This document shows, piece after piece, positions 7,229-16,942 of a stretch of DNA of 52,097 nt. Location of the stretch: contig CAIOKE010000373.1 of NCBI GenBank assembly GCA_903858815.1, positions 1 to 52,097 on the forward strand, written 5' to 3'. A program made the translations under genes and the position numbers. The stretch's first letter is position 1, and each line of letters opens with the position of its first letter. Under the pieces are notes generated by a model, which saw nothing but the letters and a program-made list of their open reading frames with translations, was not told the DNA's origin and ran no database searches. The DNA comes from an uncultured Planctomycetaceae bacterium (GTDB lineage Bacteria > Planctomycetota > Planctomycetia > Planctomycetales > Planctomycetaceae).

Positions 7229-8698
7229 ATGTCAAAGCATGATATTGGACTGATTGGTCTGGCCGTGATGGGTCAGAACCTGGTCATGAATATGGCCAAC
7301 AAGGGTTTCTCGGTCGGTGTCTACAATCGCACCACCGAGACGACTCACGAATTCCTGAAAGGGCTGGGAAGTCGGCCGGCAGGCGTGGTTGAAGCGGGGG
7401 CGGCTGAACGCATTCACGGCTATGACTCTCTGGAAGACTTCGTTAACAGCCTCGCTGCGCCTCGTCGTGTCATGATCATGGTGAAGGCCGGTAGCCCGGT
7501 GGACGCCGTGATTGACCAGCTGAAGCCACTGTTGGCTCAGGGAGACATCATTATCGACGGCGGCAATGCCGACTACACGGATACCAATCGTCGCCACAAG
7601 CAGTTGGCCGAGGAAGGTTTCCGATTTATCGGGACTGGTGTTTCCGGTGGTGAAGAAGGGGCACTGAAAGGGCCCAGCATCATGCCGGGCGGACATCCGG
7701 AAGCCTGGCCATTTGTTAAGGACGTCTTCCAGAGGATCAGTGCGAAAGTGGGGCCGAATGGGGACATTCCGTGCTGCGACTGGGTCGGTGAAGCCGGCGC
7801 CGGCCACTATGTGAAGATGGTGCACAACGGGATTGAATACGGCGACATGCAGCTGATCTGCGAAGCCTATTACATCCTGAAGTATGGCGTTGGACTGTCA
7901 AATCGTGAGCTGTTTGAAGTGTTCCGCGAGTGGAATGAGGGAGAACTCGAAAGCTACCTGATCGAAATTACTCGTGATATCTTCACGGTGCAGGATCGTG
8001 AGACCGGCAGTGATCTGGTGGATCTGATTCTTGACACGGCCGGGCAGAAGGGGACTGGCAAGTGGATGAGTCAGCATGCCCTTGATCTGGGTGTGCCGAC
8101 CACCTTGATTACGGAAGCTGTGTTTGCTCGCTGCCTTTCAGCCCAGAAGGATGCTCGAGTGCGGGCTGAAGCAGTGCTCAAAGGGCCGGATACAAAGTTC
8201 ACGGGTGACCGTAAACAGTTTGTTGATGACGTGCGGCAGGCTCTGTATGCCTCGAAACTCTGCAGCTATGCTCAGGGTTACGTACAGCTTGATGCAGCAG
8301 CAAAAGAATTCGGCTGGAAGCTGCAGAATGGCCCGATCGCTCTGCTGTGGCGTGGTGGCTGCATCATTCGATCGCGATTTCTGGAGGATATCAAGAAGGC
8401 CTTCGACAAGAACCCGACGCTCGAAAACCTGCTGCTGGACGACTTCTTCAGGTCGGCGATCGAGCAGGCTCAGCCGGCGTGGCGCCGAGTGGTTTCGACG
8501 GCTATTCAACTGGGATTGCCGGTGCCCGGCTTTTCAGCCGCTCTGACCTACTTTGACGGTTATCGCCGTGGTCGCCTGCCGGCGAATCTGCTGCAGGCGC
8601 AGCGCGACTACTTCGGTGCTCATACCTACGAACGTGTCGACAAGCCGCGTGGTGAAAAGTTCCACACGGACTGGATTCGTGAACGTCGTCTGTCGTAG
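7229..8698 (+). CDS. gnd: 6-phosphogluconate dehydrogenase (decarboxylating)
   Basis: Oxidative pentose-phosphate enzyme: 6-phosphogluconate + NADP+ to ribulose 5-phosphate + CO2 + NADPH. The 489 residues fit the long (E. coli-like) class, about 470-490. Motifs seen in order are the dinucleotide fold GLAVMGQNLVMNMA with NRT at the end of strand 2, IIDGGNADYTDTNRR, the family signature FIGTGVSGGEEGALKGPSIMPGG, the catalytic-Lys segment GAGHYVKMVHNGIEYGDMQLI, and a C-terminal region with RGGCIIRS and FSAALTYFDGYR. The start at 7229 gives the conserved MSKHDIGLIG. Longer in-frame versions back to 7091 would overlap the kinase and add 46 atypical residues. It probably shares an operon with the kinase. 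A strong terminator follows. Confidence 0.96.
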   Translation: MSKHDIGLIGLAVMGQNLVMNMANKGFSVGVYNRTTETTHEFLKGLGSRPAGVVEAGAAERIHGYDSLEDFVNSLAAPRRVMIMVKAGSPVDAVIDQLKPLLAQGDIIIDGGNADYTDTNRRHKQLAEEGFRFIGTGVSGGEEGALKGPSIMPGGHPEAWPFVKDVFQRISAKVGPNGDIPCCDWVGEAGAGHYVKMVHNGIEYGDMQLICEAYYILKYGVGLSNRELFEVFREWNEGELESYLIEITRDIFTVQDRETGSDLVDLILDTAGQKGTGKWMSQHALDLGVPTTLITEAVFARCLSAQKDARVRAEAVLKGPDTKFTGDRKQFVDDVRQALYASKLCSYAQGYVQLDAAAKEFGWKLQNGPIALLWRGGCIIRSRFLEDIKKAFDKNPTLENLLLDDFFRSAIEQAQPAWRRVVSTAIQLGLPVPGFSAALTYFDGYRRGRLPANLLQAQRDYFGAHTYERVDKPRGEKFHTDWIRERRLS

Positions 8699-8734
8699 AC
8701 GCTGCAAGACCATCACGGGTCTTTGAGATCCTTG

Positions 8735-8775
8735 TCCCGGACCGCTCTGTTACTGGAGTTGTCCGGGATTTTTTT
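8735..8775 (+). terminator. Rho-independent terminator after gnd
   Basis: The arms TCCCGGAC (8735-8742) and GTCCGGGA (8761-8768) pair perfectly and are followed by seven T residues (8769-8775). The 18-nt loop can form a short inner helix. It ends the kinase-gnd unit and insulates the metal transport operon. Confidence 0.85.
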
Positions 8776-8803
8776 GTCATCGAGGGAACCGCTGGACTGG
8801 CTG

Positions 8804-8832
8804 TTGGACAAAAGTGTAGCACAGGCTACAAT
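8804..8832 (+). promoter_or_regulatory. Sigma70-type promoter of the metal ABC operon
   Basis: TTGGAC at 8804-8809 and TACAAT at 8827-8832 are separated by exactly 17 bp, a near-consensus housekeeping promoter. It lies 48-64 bp before the candidate starts of the binding-protein gene. Its spacer and -10 box are covered by a perfect palindrome (see next entry). Confidence 0.6.
8815..8830. promoter_or_regulatory. Palindromic operator candidate over the -10 box
   Basis: TGTAGC-ACAG-GCTACA is a perfect 6-4-6 inverted repeat. Allowing one mismatch per side, the symmetry extends to the flanking AA and TT. It overlaps the -10 hexamer of the predicted promoter, the usual place for a repressor to act. 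The downstream operon encodes two DtxR/MntR-like domains, which makes a metal-dependent autorepression site plausible but unproven. Confidence 0.5.
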
Positions 8833-8895
8833 TACTCGCGAGGGCTCGGCTTTGGGTTGGCTGAGTGATGTGGTTATCGAGTGCGGGGGTGGCTT

Positions 8896-9918
8896 ATGCC
8901 GTTGGTATGGCAAGTCAGGCTGACATGTCTCCTGCTGATGCTGACAGGTGTCCTGCCATTGGTCGGTTGTGGCTCCAGTGGGCAGTCCGGGGTTGCTGAA
9001 GGGACGGCTGCAGTTGTCAATTCGAATTTTGAAGTCGTTGTTACTGTAGGGATGGCAGCCGATCTTGTGCGACGCGTTGGTGGTGAACGTGTGCAGGTGC
9101 GGCAGTTAATGGGCAGTGGTGTGGATCCTCATCTCTACAAGCCGACTCGTGACGACATCCGTCAGCTGATGTCCGGCGATCTGATTGTGAGTGTGGGGTT
9201 ATTGCTTGAGGGGCGGATGCAGGAGTCCGTTGCGAAGTTATCAGAGCAGCAGCGTGTGCTGGTGCTGGGAGCCTCCCTTCCGGCGGAGCGGTTGCTGACC
9301 GAGGAGGGGTCTGGAGGTCATCCGGATCCGCATGTCTGGATGGACGTCGCCCTGTGGGCCGACAGTATTCCGGCGATTGTGGGGGCATTATCCGAGACGC
9401 AGCCTGAGTATGCAGGGGAGTTCAGGCGCCGGGGTGAGCAGCTGACAGCCGAGTTGTCAGCATTGCATGAATTCGGCCTTGAGTGTGTGCAGTCGATACC
9501 TTCAGAACGGCGAGTGCTGGTGACATCGCATGATGCATTTCGTTATTTTGGTCGGGCGTATGGTCTCGAGGTGCTGGGAATTCAGGGGATCTCAACGGAG
9601 TCAGAGGCTGGATTGGTGCGGGTGAATGAACTGGTTGACCTGCTGGTGACTCGTCGTGTTTCTGCGGTATTTGCAGAGACCAGTGTTTCCCCGAAAAACC
9701 TGCAGGCGCTGATTGAGGGAGCTCGATCACGTAGCCATGAGGTGGTGCTGGGGGGCGAGTTGTTTTCGGATGCGATGGGTGAATCTGGTACTCCGCAGGG
9801 AACCTATTCCGGGATGCTGGAGCATAATCTGACCACGGTGACGGAAGCTCTTGGAGGTCGTGTACCGAACGGTGGTTTTACTGAATGGCGCAGGTTGCGG
9901 GAGTCTGTTCGTGAGTAA
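8896..9918 (+). CDS. Metal ABC transporter substrate-binding lipoprotein (Mn/Zn/Fe, ZnuA/TroA/YtgA-like)
   Basis: Periplasmic solute-binding protein of the cluster A-I metal importers, 340 residues from the ATG at 8896 (345 from the in-frame GTG at 8881). The N-terminus is a lipoprotein signal ending in LVGC. Metal-site landmarks are His in GVDPHLYKPT, His in HPDPHVWMD, His in VTSHDAFRYFGRAYGL, and the acidic ligand region VFAETSVSPKNL. There is no long His/Asp-rich loop of the kind typical of zinc-specific ZnuA, which leans towards Mn or Fe. Its stop overlaps the GTG start of the ATPase gene by 8 bp, so the four genes are almost certainly one operon in the order binding protein, ATPase, permease, permease, as in chlamydial ytgABCD. 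Confidence 0.92.
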   Translation: MPLVWQVRLTCLLLMLTGVLPLVGCGSSGQSGVAEGTAAVVNSNFEVVVTVGMAADLVRRVGGERVQVRQLMGSGVDPHLYKPTRDDIRQLMSGDLIVSVGLLLEGRMQESVAKLSEQQRVLVLGASLPAERLLTEEGSGGHPDPHVWMDVALWADSIPAIVGALSETQPEYAGEFRRRGEQLTAELSALHEFGLECVQSIPSERRVLVTSHDAFRYFGRAYGLEVLGIQGISTESEAGLVRVNELVDLLVTRRVSAVFAETSVSPKNLQALIEGARSRSHEVVLGGELFSDAMGESGTPQGTYSGMLEHNLTTVTEALGGRVPNGGFTEWRRLRESVRE

Positions 9919-10684
9919 TCCTGCGATACCATTATCGATCCAGGATCTGACGGTTGCGTGGCATCGTCGACCGGTCATCTGGGACGTTGAATTTGACGTT
10001 TCACCCGGGCGTCTGGTGGGAATCGTGGGGCCGAACGGGGCTGGCAAGAGTACGTTGTTGAAGGCCGTGATGGATCTGGTGCCGAAGGCATCGGGGCGTG
10101 TGGAGATTTTTGGTCAGCCGTGGCATGCCGCGCGTCATCGAGTGGGTTATGTTCCGCAGCGTGAGTCTGTAGACTGGGACTTCCCGGTCAGCGTGCTGGA
10201 TGTGGTGACCATGGGCCTGTATGGTCAGATTGGCTGGTTTGGCCGAGTTCGTCGGCGTCACCGTGAGGCGGCTCGCAGGGCGCTTGAACAGGTTGGCATC
10301 GGTGAGCTCGCGGATCGTCAGATCAGTCAGCTTTCCGGGGGGCAGCAGCAACGCACTTTTCTGGCACGGGCTCTGGTGCAGGAGGCAGATCTGTATCTGA
10401 TGGATGAGCCGTTCGCGGCGGTGGATGCTGCCACGGAGCAGGCGATTGTTGAAATCCTGCGTTCGATGCGAGCGGCAGGCCGAACGGCGGTTGTGATTCA
10501 TCATGATCTGCATACGGTGCCGGACTATTTTGATTCGGTTGTGCTGCTGAACATGCGAGTGGTGGCTGAGGGGCCGACACAGGAGGTTTTTACTCGTGAA
10601 AACCTTGAGCGAACCTATGGAGGTCGTCTGACTCTGCTGGAGGAGGCAACGGAGGCGCTGCGTCGTCGGGAGCAGCGTCTGTGA
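9911..10684 (+). CDS. Metal ABC transporter ATP-binding protein (MntB/ZnuC/YtgB-like)
   Basis: Cytoplasmic ATPase of the metal importer, 257 residues. Walker A GPNGAGKST, Q-loop region YVPQRESVDWDFP (QRE...DWDFP is typical of the Mn/Zn/Fe importers), ABC signature LSGGQQQR, Walker B LYLMDEPF, D-loop and switch His in VVIHHDL are all present. The GTG start at 9911 is chosen because it lies in the overlap GTGAGTAA with the upstream stop, and the product then begins just before the conserved beta strand. An earlier in-frame ATG (9851) would sit deep inside the binding-protein gene. Its end overlaps the next GTG start by 4 bp (GTGA). Confidence 0.94.
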   Translation: MSNPAIPLSIQDLTVAWHRRPVIWDVEFDVSPGRLVGIVGPNGAGKSTLLKAVMDLVPKASGRVEIFGQPWHAARHRVGYVPQRESVDWDFPVSVLDVVTMGLYGQIGWFGRVRRRHREAARRALEQVGIGELADRQISQLSGGQQQRTFLARALVQEADLYLMDEPFAAVDAATEQAIVEILRSMRAAGRTAVVIHHDLHTVPDYFDSVVLLNMRVVAEGPTQEVFTRENLERTYGGRLTLLEEATEALRRREQRL

Positions 10685-12150
10685 GTGTTCATCTGCAGAT
10701 ATTTGTGCAGCTGCTGCAGTCGGCAAGCGAGTGTGTACTGGTTTTGCTGGCAGCAGGGACAGGATTTCGCGAGCGGCTGAGCAGTCTGCTGCTCTTTGAA
10801 CACTACAACACTCGGATTGTTCTGCTGGGGGCAACACTGCTGGGGCTGGCCGCCGGGTTGGTCGGATGTTTTACTCTGCTTCGTCGCCGTGCGCTGGTGG
10901 GCGATGCGCTGAGTCATGCGACGCTGCCGGGTGTGGGGCTGGCCTTCCTGCTGGCTCCGCTGATGGGCTTCGACGGTTCTTCACGGCTGGTACTGCTGGC
11001 GGGTGCAGCAGCCAGTGGGATTGCCGGGGCAGTTGCCATTCTTTTTATTCGCAGTCTGCCTCGCCTGAAGGAAGATGCGGCGCTTGGGATTGTGCTGAGC
11101 GTGTTTTTCGGGGCTGGTGTTGCTTTGCTGACCGTGGTGCAGCAGGTCCCTGCCGGAAGAGCGGCTGGTCTTGACCGATACATCTTCGGTCAGACAGCTT
11201 CTATGACTGCTGCTGATGCTCGACTGATCGCTCTGACGGCAGCTTTGGTCGCACTGCTGATCGGGTTGAATTTTCGCTCATTGACGCTGCTGTGTTTTGA
11301 TGAGGGTTATGCTGCGGCGCGGGGATATTCGATCTCGTTGCTTGATCTGCTGCTGATGTCACTGGTTGTACTGATCACAATGATCGGGCTGCAGGCTGTG
11401 GGACTGATCCTGATGATTGCGATGCTGGTGATTCCCGCTGCGGCCGCTCGCTTCTGGACCAATCGCTTGTGGGTGATGCTGTTGATTTCCGGTCTGATCG
11501 GTGGACTGTCCGGTTTTTTCGGGGCCCTGCTCAGTGCTCTGTTTGCTGATCTTCCGTCCGGCGCTGTGATTGTTCTGACCTGTGGTGTTCTGTTTTTTGG
11601 CAGCCTGTTGCTGGGGCGTGAGCGGGGTGTCCTTGTACGTTCCATGCGACGCAGTGAACTGGCCGCGGCAATTGACCGGGAACATCTGCTGCGCGGGATT
11701 TGGGAGCTGCGAGAATCCGCTGGAGAGGAGTCGGCATCGGAATCGGACCGTCGAGCGGCTGGATTTGAGGAACTTCTGAATCTTCGGTCATGGAGTGCCG
11801 GGCGATTGCGTGCTCAGATCCGCAAAGCCTCAGCTGAAGGCCTTGTCTGGCTGAATTCACTGGGCGCTGTTGAACTCACACGACGCGGTGTGATGGAAGC
11901 CGAACGACTGGTGCATCATCATCGGTTGTGGGAACTGTATCTGATCACGCACGCCGACGTGGCAGCCTCGCGGGTGGACCGTGAGGCGGATGCGATCGAG
12001 CACGTTCTGGAACCCGAACTGATTGCTCGTCTTGAGGAGTTGCTGCTGCAGCGGCAGCGGGGTTCTGCGATTCCTGCAAGTCCTCACGATATCGCAGGTG
12101 CTGCTGTGCAGCAGTCAGTCGCTGCCGTGCAGGAGGATCGCAGGAAATGA
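10681..12150 (+). CDS. Metal ABC permease fused to a DtxR/MntR-like domain (YtgC-YtgR-like)
   Basis: Two-part protein of 489 residues. Residues 1 to about 312 are an ABC-3 family permease with multiple membrane helices and conserved GDALSHATLPGVGLAFL, GLQAVGLILMIAMLVIPA and DLPSGA. Residues about 325-405 look like a winged helix ending TRRGVMEAERL. About 405-460 matches the DtxR/MntR dimerisation and metal-binding segment: HHHRLWELYL, then READAIEH. By alignment to MntR/DtxR the likely ligands are H414, D437, E440 and H441. It lacks a DPHG-type C-terminal motif. Start and stop overlap the neighbours by 4 bp each (GTGA, ATGA). In Chlamydia, YtgCR has this same architecture and is cleaved to release an iron-dependent repressor. 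A similar role here is inference. Confidence 0.9.
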   Translation: MSVHLQIFVQLLQSASECVLVLLAAGTGFRERLSSLLLFEHYNTRIVLLGATLLGLAAGLVGCFTLLRRRALVGDALSHATLPGVGLAFLLAPLMGFDGSSRLVLLAGAAASGIAGAVAILFIRSLPRLKEDAALGIVLSVFFGAGVALLTVVQQVPAGRAAGLDRYIFGQTASMTAADARLIALTAALVALLIGLNFRSLTLLCFDEGYAAARGYSISLLDLLLMSLVVLITMIGLQAVGLILMIAMLVIPAAAARFWTNRLWVMLLISGLIGGLSGFFGALLSALFADLPSGAVIVLTCGVLFFGSLLLGRERGVLVRSMRRSELAAAIDREHLLRGIWELRESAGEESASESDRRAAGFEELLNLRSWSAGRLRAQIRKASAEGLVWLNSLGAVELTRRGVMEAERLVHHHRLWELYLITHADVAASRVDREADAIEHVLEPELIARLEELLLQRQRGSAIPASPHDIAGAAVQQSVAAVQEDRRK

Positions 12151-13499
12151 CTGATGCCCTGAGTTGGACATGGCATTACGACGGCGTGATCCTGCTGACA
12201 GGCATACTTTGTGCTGTGGCCGCATCGTTGCCCGGAAATTTTCTTGTGTTGCGCCGTACCAGTCTGCTGGGTGACGCGGTGAGTCATGCGGTACTGCCTG
12301 GGATTGCCGCCGCTTTTCTGCTGACCCACAGTCGGACAGGTCCGATACTGTTTGCGGGGGCTGTTGTGGCCGGGCTGCTCACAGCACTGCTGACAGAGTT
12401 GATACGGGATATCGGGTCTGTGGATGAAGGGGCATCCACAGGTGTGGTATTTACTACGTTGTTTGCGGCAGGTCTGGTGTTAATTGTACAGGCTGCCGAT
12501 TCTGTGGATCTGGATCCGGGGTGTGTTTTATACGGTGCTCTTGAGGACAGCCCGCTGCAGACCTTCCGGATGGGTGGGCTGGAACTGCCGCGGGTAACCC
12601 TGACTCTGGCCGCTGTGCTGCTGTTGAACCTCGTGTTTGTACTGCTGTTTTTCAAGGAATTGCTGATCAGTTCGTTTGATCCGGGGCTGGCAACAACTGG
12701 TGGCTACAATGCTCGGCTGGTGCATTATCTGCTGATGGTGATCGTGGCCATCACAGCTGTGGCCAGTTTTGAAGCGGCTGGCAATATCCTTGTTGTCGCG
12801 ATGTTCATCGTCCCTCCATCAGCGGCACTGCTGCTGACGACGCGACTGAGCCACATGATCTGGATCAGTGCAGGAATTGCAGCGACGGCGGCTGTCATGG
12901 GGCATTTCTCGGCTCTGATACTGCCACGGTGGGCTGGATATCGCAGTATCTCAACCGCTGGCATGATGACACTTTGTGTGGGTCTGTTGTTCCTTGCTGC
13001 GGCTCTGTTGTCACCTTCAGCCGGGGTGTTGACGGGATGGGTACGGCGAGTTCGACTGTCTCTCAGGATTCTCTGCGAGGATCTGCTGGCTCTGTTGTAT
13101 CGAATTGAAGAGCGAAGCGGGGCGCGGGAGATTTCGACGATAGCGAGTGTTGAGGAATTGTCTCGAAAACTTCTGTGCGGTCGTCGCATGCTGATCGTCG
13201 CTGGCTGGATCCAGGCTCGACAGGGACGGCTGACTCGCGAAGGAGACATCCTGAAGCTGACCGATACGGGGCGTCGTGAAGCTGCGCTGCTGGTTCGCTC
13301 GCATAGGCTCTGGGAATCGTATCTGGTAACCGAGGGGGTCGGTCGAGGCCGCATTCATCGTCAGGCAGAGACGCTTGAGCACTACACCAGTGAAGGTCTG
13401 CGCAGTCGCCTTGATACAGGGTTACCTGACGGTACTCTGGATCCGCATGGCAGTCCGATTCCGGGAGAACACGATTTCAGAAGCCCGCCCGATGCATGA
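12147..13499 (+). CDS. Second metal ABC permease, also fused to a DtxR/MntR-like domain
   Basis: Protein of 450 residues. Residues 1 to about 298 form an ABC-3 permease (LLGDAVSHAVLPGIAAAFLL, AAGNILVVAMFIVPPSAALLL). Residues 310-380 read like a DtxR winged helix: the first helix EDLLALLYRIEE, then ELSRKL, GWIQ, and the wing ILKLTDTGRREA. Residues 380-439 are a full metal-binding/dimerisation segment: VRSHRLWESYL, HRQAETLEH and the family's typical DPHGSPIP at 432-439. By alignment to DtxR/MntR the candidate ligands are H386, H404, E408, E411 and H412, so this copy looks more intact than the one in the first permease. The ATGA overlap with the upstream gene implies translational coupling. The 3' end overlaps the convergent gluQ-like gene by 23 bp. 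Confidence 0.9.
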   Translation: MTDALSWTWHYDGVILLTGILCAVAASLPGNFLVLRRTSLLGDAVSHAVLPGIAAAFLLTHSRTGPILFAGAVVAGLLTALLTELIRDIGSVDEGASTGVVFTTLFAAGLVLIVQAADSVDLDPGCVLYGALEDSPLQTFRMGGLELPRVTLTLAAVLLLNLVFVLLFFKELLISSFDPGLATTGGYNARLVHYLLMVIVAITAVASFEAAGNILVVAMFIVPPSAALLLTTRLSHMIWISAGIAATAAVMGHFSALILPRWAGYRSISTAGMMTLCVGLLFLAAALLSPSAGVLTGWVRRVRLSLRILCEDLLALLYRIEERSGAREISTIASVEELSRKLLCGRRMLIVAGWIQARQGRLTREGDILKLTDTGRREAALLVRSHRLWESYLVTEGVGRGRIHRQAETLEHYTSEGLRSRLDTGLPDGTLDPHGSPIPGEHDFRSPPDA

Positions 13500-14337
13500 C
13501 ATCAGCTGGTGTCAGTCCCTGCTGTCGCAGTGCCTGCACCGTTTCCGCTCGGTCTCGTTTTGCGAGTCGTTTTCCATCTGCGTCACGCAGCAGTGAGTGG
13601 TGTTGATACACGGGGATCGGCAGCTGCAGAAGTTCCTGCAGCAGACGATGCAGATGCGTGGCTTCAAACAGATCTTCGCCACGAGAAATGTGGGTGACTG
13701 CCTGTAGAGCATCATCATGAACAACACACAGGTGATAACTGCAGCCAATATCTCGTCGTACGAGCACGACATCACCCAGCAGTTCCGGTGCAGCCTGCTG
13801 CGGGCCACGATTCAGATCCAGCCATTCCATCGGCCGGCAGACAGTGGCCATGGCTGCAGCGAGATCAAGTCGCAGTGCAAATGAGTCTCCTCGATTGACG
13901 CGGAATTGTTGCTCATCTTTCGACAGGCGACGGCAGGTACCCGGATAGAGGGGGCCCTCGGATCCATGCGGGGCGCCGCCTGCGGCTGCAATCTCTCGCT
14001 GGATCTCCTGTCGCGTACAGAAACACGGGTAAAGCAGGCCTCGTTGCAACAGAGTCTCTGCGGTTTGACGGTATTCCGCCAGGTGCTGTGACTGGCAGCG
14101 AACCGGCACTGGCCACTGAAATCCCAGCCATGCCAGATCCTCGAAAATCCCTTCGGTGTACTCAGTGCGACAGCGAGTGAAATCGATATCTTCAATTCGC
14201 AGCAGGAATTGTCCGCCGGTTTCCAGGGCCAGTTGTCGAGCGTTGAGTGCCGAGCAGACATGTCCGCAGTGCAGCCGACCTGTCGGGCTGGGGGCAAAAC
14301 GGCTGAGTGTCGTTGCATTCATTCTAACGCAGTTCAT
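13477..14337 (-). CDS. gluQ: Glutamyl-Q tRNA(Asp) synthetase
   Basis: Class I synthetase-like enzyme that attaches glutamate to queuosine in tRNA(Asp). It is about 286 residues, the short GluQRS length, and lacks the anticodon-binding domain of full GltX (about 470). Motifs are the HIGH-region equivalent RFAPSPTGRLHCGH, LRIEDIDFTRCR, a zinc-type motif CFCTRQEI with YPGTC further on, HISRGEDLFEATHLH, and the KMSKS counterpart KRLAKRD. The start could be the ATG at 14337 or the ATG at 14322 (281 residues); neither has a clear ribosome binding site. It is convergent with the metal permease and divergent from the M48 gene. Confidence 0.9.
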   Translation of the reverse strand: MNCVRMNATTLSRFAPSPTGRLHCGHVCSALNARQLALETGGQFLLRIEDIDFTRCRTEYTEGIFEDLAWLGFQWPVPVRCQSQHLAEYRQTAETLLQRGLLYPCFCTRQEIQREIAAAGGAPHGSEGPLYPGTCRRLSKDEQQFRVNRGDSFALRLDLAAAMATVCRPMEWLDLNRGPQQAAPELLGDVVLVRRDIGCSYHLCVVHDDALQAVTHISRGEDLFEATHLHRLLQELLQLPIPVYQHHSLLRDADGKRLAKRDRAETVQALRQQGLTPADVMHRAGF

Positions 14338-14449
14338 TTGAGGATAGCGCAGATTCCGTGGCTGGTAGTATGGTAAAATCTGAGGTGATTTGCGAGATTT
14401 CGGAAGTTTGCAGGGAATTCCTTCAGAATGCGAACTATCGAGGAAACAC

Positions 14450-16942
14450 GTGCCTTCAAGACATACCTGTCCGGCCTGCAGTGCCACGCTGAATCTGAGG
14501 GATGAACTCACCGGAAGAAAGGTTCGATGTCCTCGCTGCCAGCAACCATTTGTGGTGCCTGCGGCGAGTGTTGCCGATTCCTTGTCGAATTCTCCACAGC
14601 CCGTTTCACGTATCGCTTCGGCCCCGGCCCCGGCACAGGCCCCGGCACAGGCCCCGGCCCCGGCCCCGGCACAGGCACTGGGGCGTTTCCTGCCACCACC
14701 AGCGCCCGAAAATCCAGAGGAATTGCGAAGTCGGATTCAACAGGCGTTTCTCACAGCGTCCATTGAGCCGGTCCGTGTTCCGCTGCTGTACAAGCTTGGA
14801 ATTCTGCTGGTTTCAGTGCTGATGGTGCTGCTGCCCCTGGTCTATCTGCTGATTATTGTATTGACTGGAATCCTGTTGTTCAGGCATGCCGTGGAAAACA
14901 TATGGGTGATCACTGCAATCAATGAAAAGATGGAAACGATTTCCGCTAAGGCCCTGATTTTCGGGCTGATGTTGTATGTGGCACCTCTGGTTTCCGGAGT
15001 GTTGCTGTTGATTTTTATGCTGAAGCCATTTTTTTCCCGGCAGGCTGAGCATACGGGGCGACGGACGCTGAAGCGTGCGGATGAGCCAATTCTGTTTGAT
15101 TTCGTGGGGCGTATTTGTCGGGCTGTCAATGCACCTGTTCCGACGCGGATTGATATTGATTGTCAGATCAATGCCAGTGCAGGATTCCGTCGAGGTCTGC
15201 TGAGTTTCTTCGGAAATGATCTGGTACTGACAATTGGTATGCCACTTGTGGCCGGGCTGAATATGCGACAGTTCGGCGGAGTTCTGGCACATGAATTCGG
15301 TCATTTTTCGCAGGGAGCCGGAATGCGGCTTTCGTGGCTGATTCGCAGCATGAACTACTGGTTTGCTCGGTTGGTTTATGAACGCGATTCGTGGGATGAA
15401 CGACTGGAGGAGTATTCAAAACGATTTGATAATGTATTTGGCCGAATACTGATGGTGGCTAGATTCACGGTCTGGCTGGTACGGCGACTGTTATGGGTCT
15501 TCATGCTTGTGGGGCATGTGATCAGCGGCTTTCTGATGCGTCAGATGGAGTTTGATGCCGACCGCTACGAAGCACGTTTCGCGGGTTCGAAAACTTTCGC
15601 TCGTACTGCTCGACAGCTGCATGTACTGGGAGTTTCGTGGAATGGCGCGATGTCGGACCTCAGCCTGCTTTATCACGAAGAACGATTGGTCGACAACTTT
15701 CCATCGCTGATACTGCTGAATGCAGAGCAGATCAGGGAGCGAGGACAGCGGGCGATTGACGAGGTGATCATCGAGTCGAAGACTGCTGCTTTTGATACTC
15801 ACCCCTGTGATCGTGAGCGGATCGCGCGTGCTGCGCAGGAAAAAGCTGACGGAATTTTTCAGCTGGAACTGCCTGCCGCTCATCTGTTTCGTCGTTTTGA
15901 GGAACTTTCAAAGGCAGTCACGTGGGATTTTTATCGCGAAATGCTGGGTAGCGAGCTGAAGAAGTCGCGGATTCATCCTATTGAAAAAATGGCGCGACAT
16001 CTGCAGGAAAAGCAGGATACATGGAAATCGCTGCATCGATTCTTCCAGGGACAGTTGGCACTGTACAGACCGTTTCAGGGCCCGGAAGAGGCTCAAAAAC
16101 CGGTGACAAATGCTGTGGCTGTGCTGGATCGACTGCGAAAGTCACGCGAATCCATGCTGCAGAAGGTCGAAGGCTTTCGTGAAAACTGGAAGCTGTTTGA
16201 TGAGTGTGATACGCGGCTGATCGAAATTCGTATGGCTGAGCTGCTGCTGCGAATAGGAATCCGGATTCCGCGGGATGAATTCTCCGTACCACTGACGACC
16301 GAAGAACAGATAGCCGCAGAAAAGGAAAGTGCTGAGGATCAGCAGGCAAAACTGCTGCCGCGGATCATCCCATTCGAGCAGGCCGCCGCCGCACGACTGT
16401 TTTCTGCACTCAGGCTGGCCCGCACCCCGGAACTGACCACCGTTCTGCAGGAAGCTCGGTTCTCTGCTGATGAGGTTGAGCGACTACTGGAATTGTTTCG
16501 ACTGATCAACGACTGGATTCAGCCCCTGCTGATGCTCAGAGATACACGGCTTGCACTGGGACGAATGCTGCATGAAATGTCGTCTGATGAGCAGAATGAA
16601 AAGCTGTTGCAGCAGATCAAACGCTTCATTGGCAGTATGTTTCGCCAGCTGCAGAGCGTGCAGGAGGCATTTGCAGAGTTCGAGTATCCCTTTGATCATG
16701 CTCGAAAGCAGATCTCCATCGCCGATTTTCTGGTGGAGTCACAGCCAGAAGAGGATGACCCTGGAGCGATGTATGAGGCTTCAGAAAAACTGGCTGAGCG
16801 CTTCCTGCAATTGCATACCCTTGTCTTTGGCAGGCTGTGTCAGGCTGCAGAGACGGTTGAGCAGTTCTTTGGGATGCCTCTGTTGCCAGAGCCTCCGGAG
16901 TCTGACGACGACGATGAAGAGAATGGCAGTGAAAACGAATGA
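14450..16942 (+). CDS. Membrane M48-type metallopeptidase with N-terminal zinc ribbon
   Basis: 830-residue membrane protein. The N-terminus has a two-CxxC zinc ribbon (CPAC ... CPRC, followed by QQPFVVP) of the kind common in planctomycete proteins, then a low-complexity Pro-Ala-Gln linker, then two strongly hydrophobic segments. The M48/HtpX-like peptidase core contains LAHEFGHFSQG, whose HEFGH is the HExxH zinc site, and further on EFDADRYEA, supplying the third ligand Glu. A long helical, charged C-terminal region (about 350 residues) has no assigned domain. I chose the GTG at 14450 because GAGGA lies 5 nt upstream and the ribbon follows at once. A TTG at 14390 is also in frame. Substrate and biological role are unknown; membrane protein quality control is the family precedent. 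Confidence 0.82.
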   Translation: MPSRHTCPACSATLNLRDELTGRKVRCPRCQQPFVVPAASVADSLSNSPQPVSRIASAPAPAQAPAQAPAPAPAQALGRFLPPPAPENPEELRSRIQQAFLTASIEPVRVPLLYKLGILLVSVLMVLLPLVYLLIIVLTGILLFRHAVENIWVITAINEKMETISAKALIFGLMLYVAPLVSGVLLLIFMLKPFFSRQAEHTGRRTLKRADEPILFDFVGRICRAVNAPVPTRIDIDCQINASAGFRRGLLSFFGNDLVLTIGMPLVAGLNMRQFGGVLAHEFGHFSQGAGMRLSWLIRSMNYWFARLVYERDSWDERLEEYSKRFDNVFGRILMVARFTVWLVRRLLWVFMLVGHVISGFLMRQMEFDADRYEARFAGSKTFARTARQLHVLGVSWNGAMSDLSLLYHEERLVDNFPSLILLNAEQIRERGQRAIDEVIIESKTAAFDTHPCDRERIARAAQEKADGIFQLELPAAHLFRRFEELSKAVTWDFYREMLGSELKKSRIHPIEKMARHLQEKQDTWKSLHRFFQGQLALYRPFQGPEEAQKPVTNAVAVLDRLRKSRESMLQKVEGFRENWKLFDECDTRLIEIRMAELLLRIGIRIPRDEFSVPLTTEEQIAAEKESAEDQQAKLLPRIIPFEQAAAARLFSALRLARTPELTTVLQEARFSADEVERLLELFRLINDWIQPLLMLRDTRLALGRMLHEMSSDEQNEKLLQQIKRFIGSMFRQLQSVQEAFAEFEYPFDHARKQISIADFLVESQPEEDDPGAMYEASEKLAERFLQLHTLVFGRLCQAAETVEQFFGMPLLPEPPESDDDDEENGSENE
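14620..14680 (+). repeat. GC-rich low-complexity repeat encoding Pro-Ala-Gln
   Basis: Imperfect tandem of GCCCCG and GCACAG hexamers, read in frame as alternating Ala with Pro or Gln. It forms the linker between the zinc ribbon and the first membrane segment. Confidence 0.88.

Follow-up and report, generated by a model that had tools for sequence, protein, structure and literature searches.

Both membrane subunits of one bacterial metal importer carry a repressor-type domain in the 52,097-nt window analysed here, contig CAIOKE010000373.1 of an uncultured Planctomycetaceae bacterium (assembly GCA_903858815.1). At 8881-13499 on the + strand, four closely packed genes with overlapping stops and starts encode a binding protein, an ATP-binding cassette (ABC) ATPase and two ABC-3 permeases, termed P1 and P2, each of which continues into a DtxR-type domain. 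The operon is that of a TroABCD/PsaABC-type divalent-metal importer whose substrate is most likely Mn2+; its ATPase matches NCBIfam Mn/Fe ABC ATPase models at ~6e-66, under the curated cut-offs of those models. Because the fused domains have a fixed helical link to the membrane part, two differing metal sites and a lost DNA-reading sequence, and because a separate repressor is present, we read the pair as a heterodimeric, asymmetric metal sensor borne by the transporter, which would brake import while transcription is left to the standalone regulator. We put the probability of this reading at about one half.

Pfam profiles define in P1 an ABC-3 permease at residues 44-310 (7e-61, 206.5 bits; cut-off 20.1) followed by Fe_dep_repr_C (PF02742) at residues 400-456 (5e-13, 49.2 bits; cut-off 27), and in P2 an ABC-3 permease at residues 16-287 (1e-40, 140.2 bits; cut-off 20.1) followed by PF02742 at residues 372-439 (3e-17, 62.8 bits; cut-off 27). 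The AlphaFold2 model of P1, with a mean predicted local distance difference test score (pLDDT) of 74.8, matches PsaBC (7kyp) over residues 32-335 (Z 33.3, 283 aligned residues, 31% identity) and DtxR over residues 328-467 (Z 11.5, 116 aligned). For P2 the model is of low overall quality (mean pLDDT 55.7, with most of the permease part below 60), and because the membrane part is poorly modelled, no permease appears among the best 50 structure matches listed. The C-terminal domain of P2 is better modelled (pLDDT mostly 73-86), and residues ~305-445 match DtxR-family structures (Z 14.8, 129-135 aligned), with the manganese-dependent repressor 5zr6 as the top match. These profile scores and winged-helix matches bear out an earlier note, made from the sequence alone, which had proposed a DtxR/MntR-like domain on both permeases of the importer. 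A chance domain match was rejected, since the Pfam scores agree with the predicted folds, as was a frameshift or misjoined gene pair, since both fusions recur in related genomes; an oddity of this one genome and a fusion made by the assembly were also considered and rejected.

The search for other permeases with the same fusion showed the doubled arrangement to be conserved. The sample comprised 79 loci with ABC-3 permeases, 54 of them having two; as these loci were retrieved by searching with P2 or, mostly, chosen for a PF02742 match, the frequencies given here are not population rates. By our own profile, 42 of the 54 two-permease loci have the domain on each permease at E<1e-20, and 50 have some trace of it on both.

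The two domains differ in their metal sites, for which we use DtxR numbering and the site residues as described in PMC2628430. P2 contains the canonical DtxR/TroR-type set, D10, H79, E83, H98, E102, E105 and H106 plus DPHG (D312, H386, E390, H404, E408, E411 and H412 in its own numbering, with DPHGSPIP at 432). By comparison, P1 contains a variant, non-canonical set, H10, H79, E83, D98, D102, E105 and H106 plus SPHD (H335, H414, E418, D433, D437, E440 and H441, with SPHD at 467). P1 domains in general show this variant set followed by SPH, and P2 domains the canonical set followed by DPHG. The position of MntR E11 is occupied by Ala in P2 and by Arg in P1. The earlier statement that the second copy keeps every aligned ligand is thus correct for the DtxR/TroR set and incorrect for the full MntR set, and the two Asp residues and missing DPHG motif ascribed to the first copy are indeed found. 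D98 and D102 are present in 25/25 P1 domains of the family of this locus, and H79, E83, H98, E105, H106 and DPHG in 27/27 P2 domains, indicating that the pattern is not due to chance. Standalone long DtxRs have H98 and E102 where P1 has D98 and D102.

This asymmetry recurs among the 54 two-permease loci, when a site is called canonical if H79, E83, H98, E105 and H106 are all present. A canonical P2 is paired with a D98-type P1 in 35 loci, with a degenerate P1 in 5 and with a P1 without the domain in 1, and a canonical P1 is paired with a degenerate P2 in 4 and with a P2 without the domain in 2. Both sites are canonical in 2 loci of a single genus (L134 and L135) and degenerate in 4, and 1 locus has a D98-type P1 and a P2 without the domain. 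Exactly one canonical site is therefore found in 47 of the 49 loci having any, although few independent events lie behind this count because the genomes are related. The conserved asymmetry fits a split role or a heterodimer, as had been hinted for the two modules. One P2 classed as degenerate (L115) has Gln at E83 and is otherwise near canonical.

Analysis of the upstream region points to a different protein as the transcriptional regulator. The inverted repeat noticed earlier at 8804-8832 is present and overlaps the sole promoter-like match in 8690-8960, at 8805-8832 (shuffled sequences, mean 0.0). The exact pattern GTAGCN4GCTAC occurs once in the 6.39-Mb assembly, and the reversed control pattern 23 times. 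The region upstream of E. coli mntH carries ATAGCAAAGGCTAT; in strain K-12 it reads AACATAGCAAAGGCTATGTT, which we take to be the E. coli MntR site, and the core TAGC-N4-GCTA is common to it and to the operator at 8816-8829. PF02742 matches a third and last time in the genome, in a standalone protein (G000:C283:35389-35766) that shows the MntR ligand pattern and, among solved structures, is closest to E. coli MntR (2h09, 9.4e-25). A standalone MntR is found in 26 of 64 genomes at E ~6e-37 or better, the next best match being 2.9e-18. Among the 61 operon loci with a readable upstream region, the box, counted at 0-1 mismatch, is present in 22: MntR and box occur together in 21 loci, MntR alone in 5, the box alone in 1 and neither in 34 (Fisher p 1e-10, kinship uncorrected). 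Four loci of Stieleria/Rhodopirellula type (L008, L009, L010 and L013) have a changed MntR recognition helix, VTHATVNN; there, TTAGC-N4-GCTAA-like sites precede mntR, and no recognisable box precedes the fused operon.

The loci with neither MntR nor box include a second operator type. TTTTGA-N4-TCAAAA is present with at most 1 mismatch in 14 of these 34 loci (expected 0.05) and in none of the other 27, and a further 'neither' locus (L118) carries an N3-spaced form of the dyad. All 15 genomes with the TTTTGA-type dyad have a standalone long DtxR scoring above 100 bits. The dyad resembles a T. pallidum tro operator oligonucleotide, which contains TTTGATGCATCAAA according to PMC2628430. The operator appears to track the standalone regulator, because the box co-occurs with MntR and the TTTTGA dyad with the long DtxR, while the fused domains occur alongside both operator types. 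Furthermore, members of the genus share an unchanged operator, yet their fused helix-turn-helix (HTH) segments diverge, most of all that of P2. A separate standalone MntR, not the fused domains, seems to control the operon, which makes it more likely that the fused pair senses metal in order to regulate the importer. The earlier proposal that the fused domains repress their own operon through 8804-8832 is, by comparison, poorly supported.

The divergence of the DNA-reading helices was quantified as mean pairwise identity over the same eight congeneric genomes, the HTH being taken as helices 2-3. HTH identity is 0.80 in the standalone MntR, 0.47 in P1 and 0.28 in P2, whereas the corresponding values for the metal region are 0.75, 0.86 and 0.75. 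In the nine-member genus set (the eight genomes plus G001), permease identity is 0.72-0.73 and linker identity 0.59, indicating that the P2 HTH changes faster than the linker. Conserved DNA-reading helices, expected of a functional DtxR/MntR repressor, are found in neither P1 nor P2, and this divergence (28% in P2 and 47% in P1, against 80% in MntR) makes a repressor role less likely. The 'SAshort' standalone group was left out of the analysis, as it is contaminated by truncated fused proteins. The pooled ratio of nonsynonymous to synonymous differences (pN/pS) over six close pairs, in several of which pS is near saturation, is 0.23 (P1) and 0.30 (P2) for the HTH, and 0.016 (P1) and 0.043 (P2) for the metal region. 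The latter values, together with the nearly invariant ligands, speak against the idea that an old fusion has simply been retained to help the two permeases assemble or to stabilise them, without any regulatory role. Loss or degeneration of one domain in 13 of the 54 loci (with the D98 type counted as present) and degeneration of both in 4 would fit such a relic, yet we regard this explanation as highly improbable, the least probable of those weighed here.

Several observations weigh against the sensor reading. The ATPase tree shows only 5 changes of MntR and 4 of the box, so that the Fisher p overstates independence; independent pairs, corrected for kinship, give 1.9 concordant and 0 discordant cases (p 0.5). 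In addition, L008, L009, L010, L013 and L125 have MntR but no box within ~500 bp. The domains are dispensable in places, since some loci lack one or both. Both predicted domains comprise a complete winged helix followed by dimerisation helices, so that they may still bind DNA; the fused HTH segments have a positive mean net charge of ~+3, and P1 keeps its own HTH motif, RSW. The HTH pN/pS values indicate that some purifying selection persists, which is also at odds with a plain relic. Residual DNA binding by the fused domains, P1 included, is possible judging from these features. Finally, one genome (G001) has a perfect box although MntR was not found in that genome, and chlamydial YtgR, a related fusion, is reported to be cleaved and to bind DNA at the ytg operator (PMC5599777 and PMC6504234).

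The last two points favour a YtgCR-like explanation, in which proteolysis would set free one or both C-terminal domains, and these would form metal-dependent dimers that repress the operon, with the Chlamydia trachomatis system as precedent and with the winged-helix fold and metal sites kept here. However, the operator follows the class of the standalone MntR or TroR, the fused HTHs diverge inside a genus with a constant operator, and the membrane domain is joined by a short link whose length is fixed, which speaks indirectly against a free linker; we consider this explanation unlikely. A form of dual control is more doubtful still. Here MntR would be the main repressor, and the tethered P1 domain would contact DNA or sequester a regulator, coupling transport to transcription, with P2 providing only the canonical site. 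The less degraded P1 HTH, with its conserved RSW, its higher identity in the genus and its positive net charge, is consistent with this, and a membrane-anchored repressor role has been discussed as possible for YtgC (PMC5599777). The P1 HTH is nevertheless unlike the one that standalone long DtxRs conserve, and a search upstream, limited to simple dyads, brought no second conserved operator to light.

The connection between membrane and cytosolic parts is uniform. Measured from where the permease profile ends, the first ligand position comes 31 residues later in 59/59 P2 and 31-32 residues later in 61/62 P1 sequences, and in both models a long helix begins ~5 residues past the last membrane helix. 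In the sensor that we propose, both permeases have acquired a C-terminal DtxR-type domain that, in planctomycetes, most likely does not act as operon repressor, the promoter operator being occupied by the standalone MntR or, in other lineages, by a TroR-like DtxR. On the cytoplasmic side the P1 and P2 domains would pair, so that each transporter has a canonical metal site and a variant one. At high cytosolic Mn2+ or Fe2+, metal binding would tighten the pair, which, through the short helical connection with the last transmembrane helix, would lock the permease and thereby act as a trans-inhibition brake. We infer the formation of the P1-P2 heterodimer and its gating role, as well as the choice of Mn2+/Fe2+. 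The loci L120, L114, L124 and L126, where the repressor domain is absent from one permease only, constitute natural single-domain controls for gating as proposed here. Two distinct conserved metal sites right under the channel, on a fixed linker, would also suit cytosolic domains that relay or buffer the imported ion while the permease stays open, but a mere relay leaves the retention of a dimerising winged-helix repressor fold unexplained, and we find such metal handling improbable, more so than dual control. A bolder version of the sensor reading, held more tentatively, is that a repressor has turned into a two-subunit brake, in which an obligate P1-P2 heterodimer would close the importer and MntR or TroR would handle transcription; most such fusions across phyla might then be gates and not repressors, with YtgR as the exception.

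The fused domains have a history that may be shared. In the permease tree, the P1 side comprises 71 rows and the P2 side 62. In a tree of 83 repressor-type domains, a starred branch (98) splits 23 standalone from 60 fused domains, and P1 domains as well as P2 domains form a cluster of their own (2 and 3 changes, respectively), in a short alignment that leaves many forks open. Given this clustering, a single old fusion passed to both permease lineages is possible. Outside Planctomycetota, one double case is confirmed by Pfam, in a Nitrospinaceae metagenome-assembled genome (L012; P1 27.0 bits at a cut-off of 27, P2 50.9). Its genome, G187, is the only one listed, in a sample of 18 genomes from that phylum, with two fused-length matches on one contig, as judged by frame length and place only, and the double fusion looks sporadic there. 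A locus labelled Desulfatitalea (L011) is double by our own profile and by ligand signature. Two Anaerolineae loci (L017 and L018), double by our own profile, were not counted as intact, as their sites are degenerate and L017 lacks a Pfam repressor domain.

Other arrangements were also observed. The P1 and P2 fusions lie apart and both keep their domains in L096/L095 (G021, separated by 3.5 Mb on one contig), L094/L093 (G020) and L099/L098 (G023), the last two pairs being on different contigs. Other Planctomycetota (L112, L113, L131, L133, L136 and L137) have a single-permease fusion type with longer open frames of 506-778 amino acids. In L131 (e.g. 7592-9109), a weak FeoA-like match (0.0014, below cut-off) follows the repressor domain; this type is perhaps a full DtxR, with its SH3-like domain, fused to one permease.

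Table 1. Coordinates of the importer operon and its control region in the window (aa, amino acids).
Feature	Position	Strand	Basis and remarks
Sigma70-like promoter	8805..8832	+	TGGACA, 16-bp spacer, TACAAT; consensus match, use in vivo only predicted
Operator GTAGCACAGGCTAC (GTAGC-N4-GCTAC)	8816..8829	.	Overlaps promoter; assigned to standalone MntR
Periplasmic metal-binding protein, ZnuA/TroA family	8881..9918	+	Pfam ZnuA 4.7e-68; GTG start, later start possible
Metal importer ABC ATPase	9911..10684	+	Pfam ABC_tran 1.1e-31; probable GTG start at 9911 from sequence
P1, ABC-3 permease with DtxR-type domain	10681..12150	+	489 aa; GTG start overlaps ATPase stop; Pfam and AlphaFold2
P1 DtxR-type domain	11629..12084	+	Residues 317-468; Pfam, AlphaFold2 model, ligand alignment
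P2, ABC-3 permease with DtxR-type domain	12147..13499	+	450 aa; ATG start overlaps P1 stop; Pfam and C-terminal model
P2 DtxR-type domain	13026..13481	+	Residues 294-445; Pfam, AlphaFold2 model, ligand alignment

On the downstream side, an open reading frame on the - strand (13477-14511) shares 23 bp with the 3' end of P2; from motifs such as FAPSPTGRLHCGH, we take it to be glutamyl-tRNA-synthetase-like. A terminator-like hairpin with a T-run (8753-8766) lies between the operon promoter and the preceding gene, which, from its sequence, is presumably 6-phosphogluconate-dehydrogenase-like. No Rfam family was found in 8600-13600 and no tRNA in the window.

Permease-repressor fusions have so far been read through the chlamydial YtgR model, in which cleavage is followed by repression. 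Should the planctomycete fusions coexist with a dedicated MntR to which the operator belongs, one and the same architecture could be put to a different use, and post-translational feedback acting directly on a metal ABC importer could be studied in bacteria that live freely and can be cultured. Through the conserved asymmetry, the contrast between D98/D102 in P1 and H98/E102 in P2 offers a handle on how the transport threshold is set by two metal sites that are not equivalent. The fusion as such is already known: the YtgR authors found it in 11 phyla, according to a review (PMC5599777), so that it is less unusual outside Chlamydiae than the earlier note had supposed. Its doubling on both permeases is apparently new; neither a double fusion nor a planctomycete one was found in the open-access literature searched, and Thompson 2012, the primary YtgR paper, may list doubled cases.

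Our comparison with known systems reveals both shared and distinct features. YtgR is described, in PMC5599777 and PMC6504234, as the only iron-dependent regulator identified, with YtgC as the one fused permease of ytgABCD. Like the proteins described here, YtgC/YtgCR of Chlamydia trachomatis comprises an ABC-3 permease followed by a DtxR-type winged helix and a metal-binding domain, within an operon of binding protein, ATPase and two permeases. In contrast to that published description, both permeases are fused here, a separate MntR is present and the operator follows MntR. The PsaBC/TroABCD Mn2+ importers share the P1 permease fold (7kyp) and the ZnuA/TroA-family binding protein, whereas the listed PsaBC chains, of 258-290 residues, have no space for a C-terminal repressor domain. 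DtxR, IdeR, MntR and TroR share the fold, the metal ligands and the winged helix with the fused domains, which differ in being membrane-tethered, in their unconserved HTH sequence and in having D98/D102 for H98/E102 in P1. In the methionine importer MetNI, the regulatory domain sits on the ATPase. E. coli MetNI undergoes trans-inhibition through its C2 regulatory domains, by which the cytosolic ligand shuts the importer, as stated in PMC12357092. The proposed logic here would be alike, in that a ligand on a paired cytosolic regulatory domain closes the importer, an analogy rather than a kinship: the domain here is of another type and sits on the permeases, and its ligand would be a metal in place of methionine.

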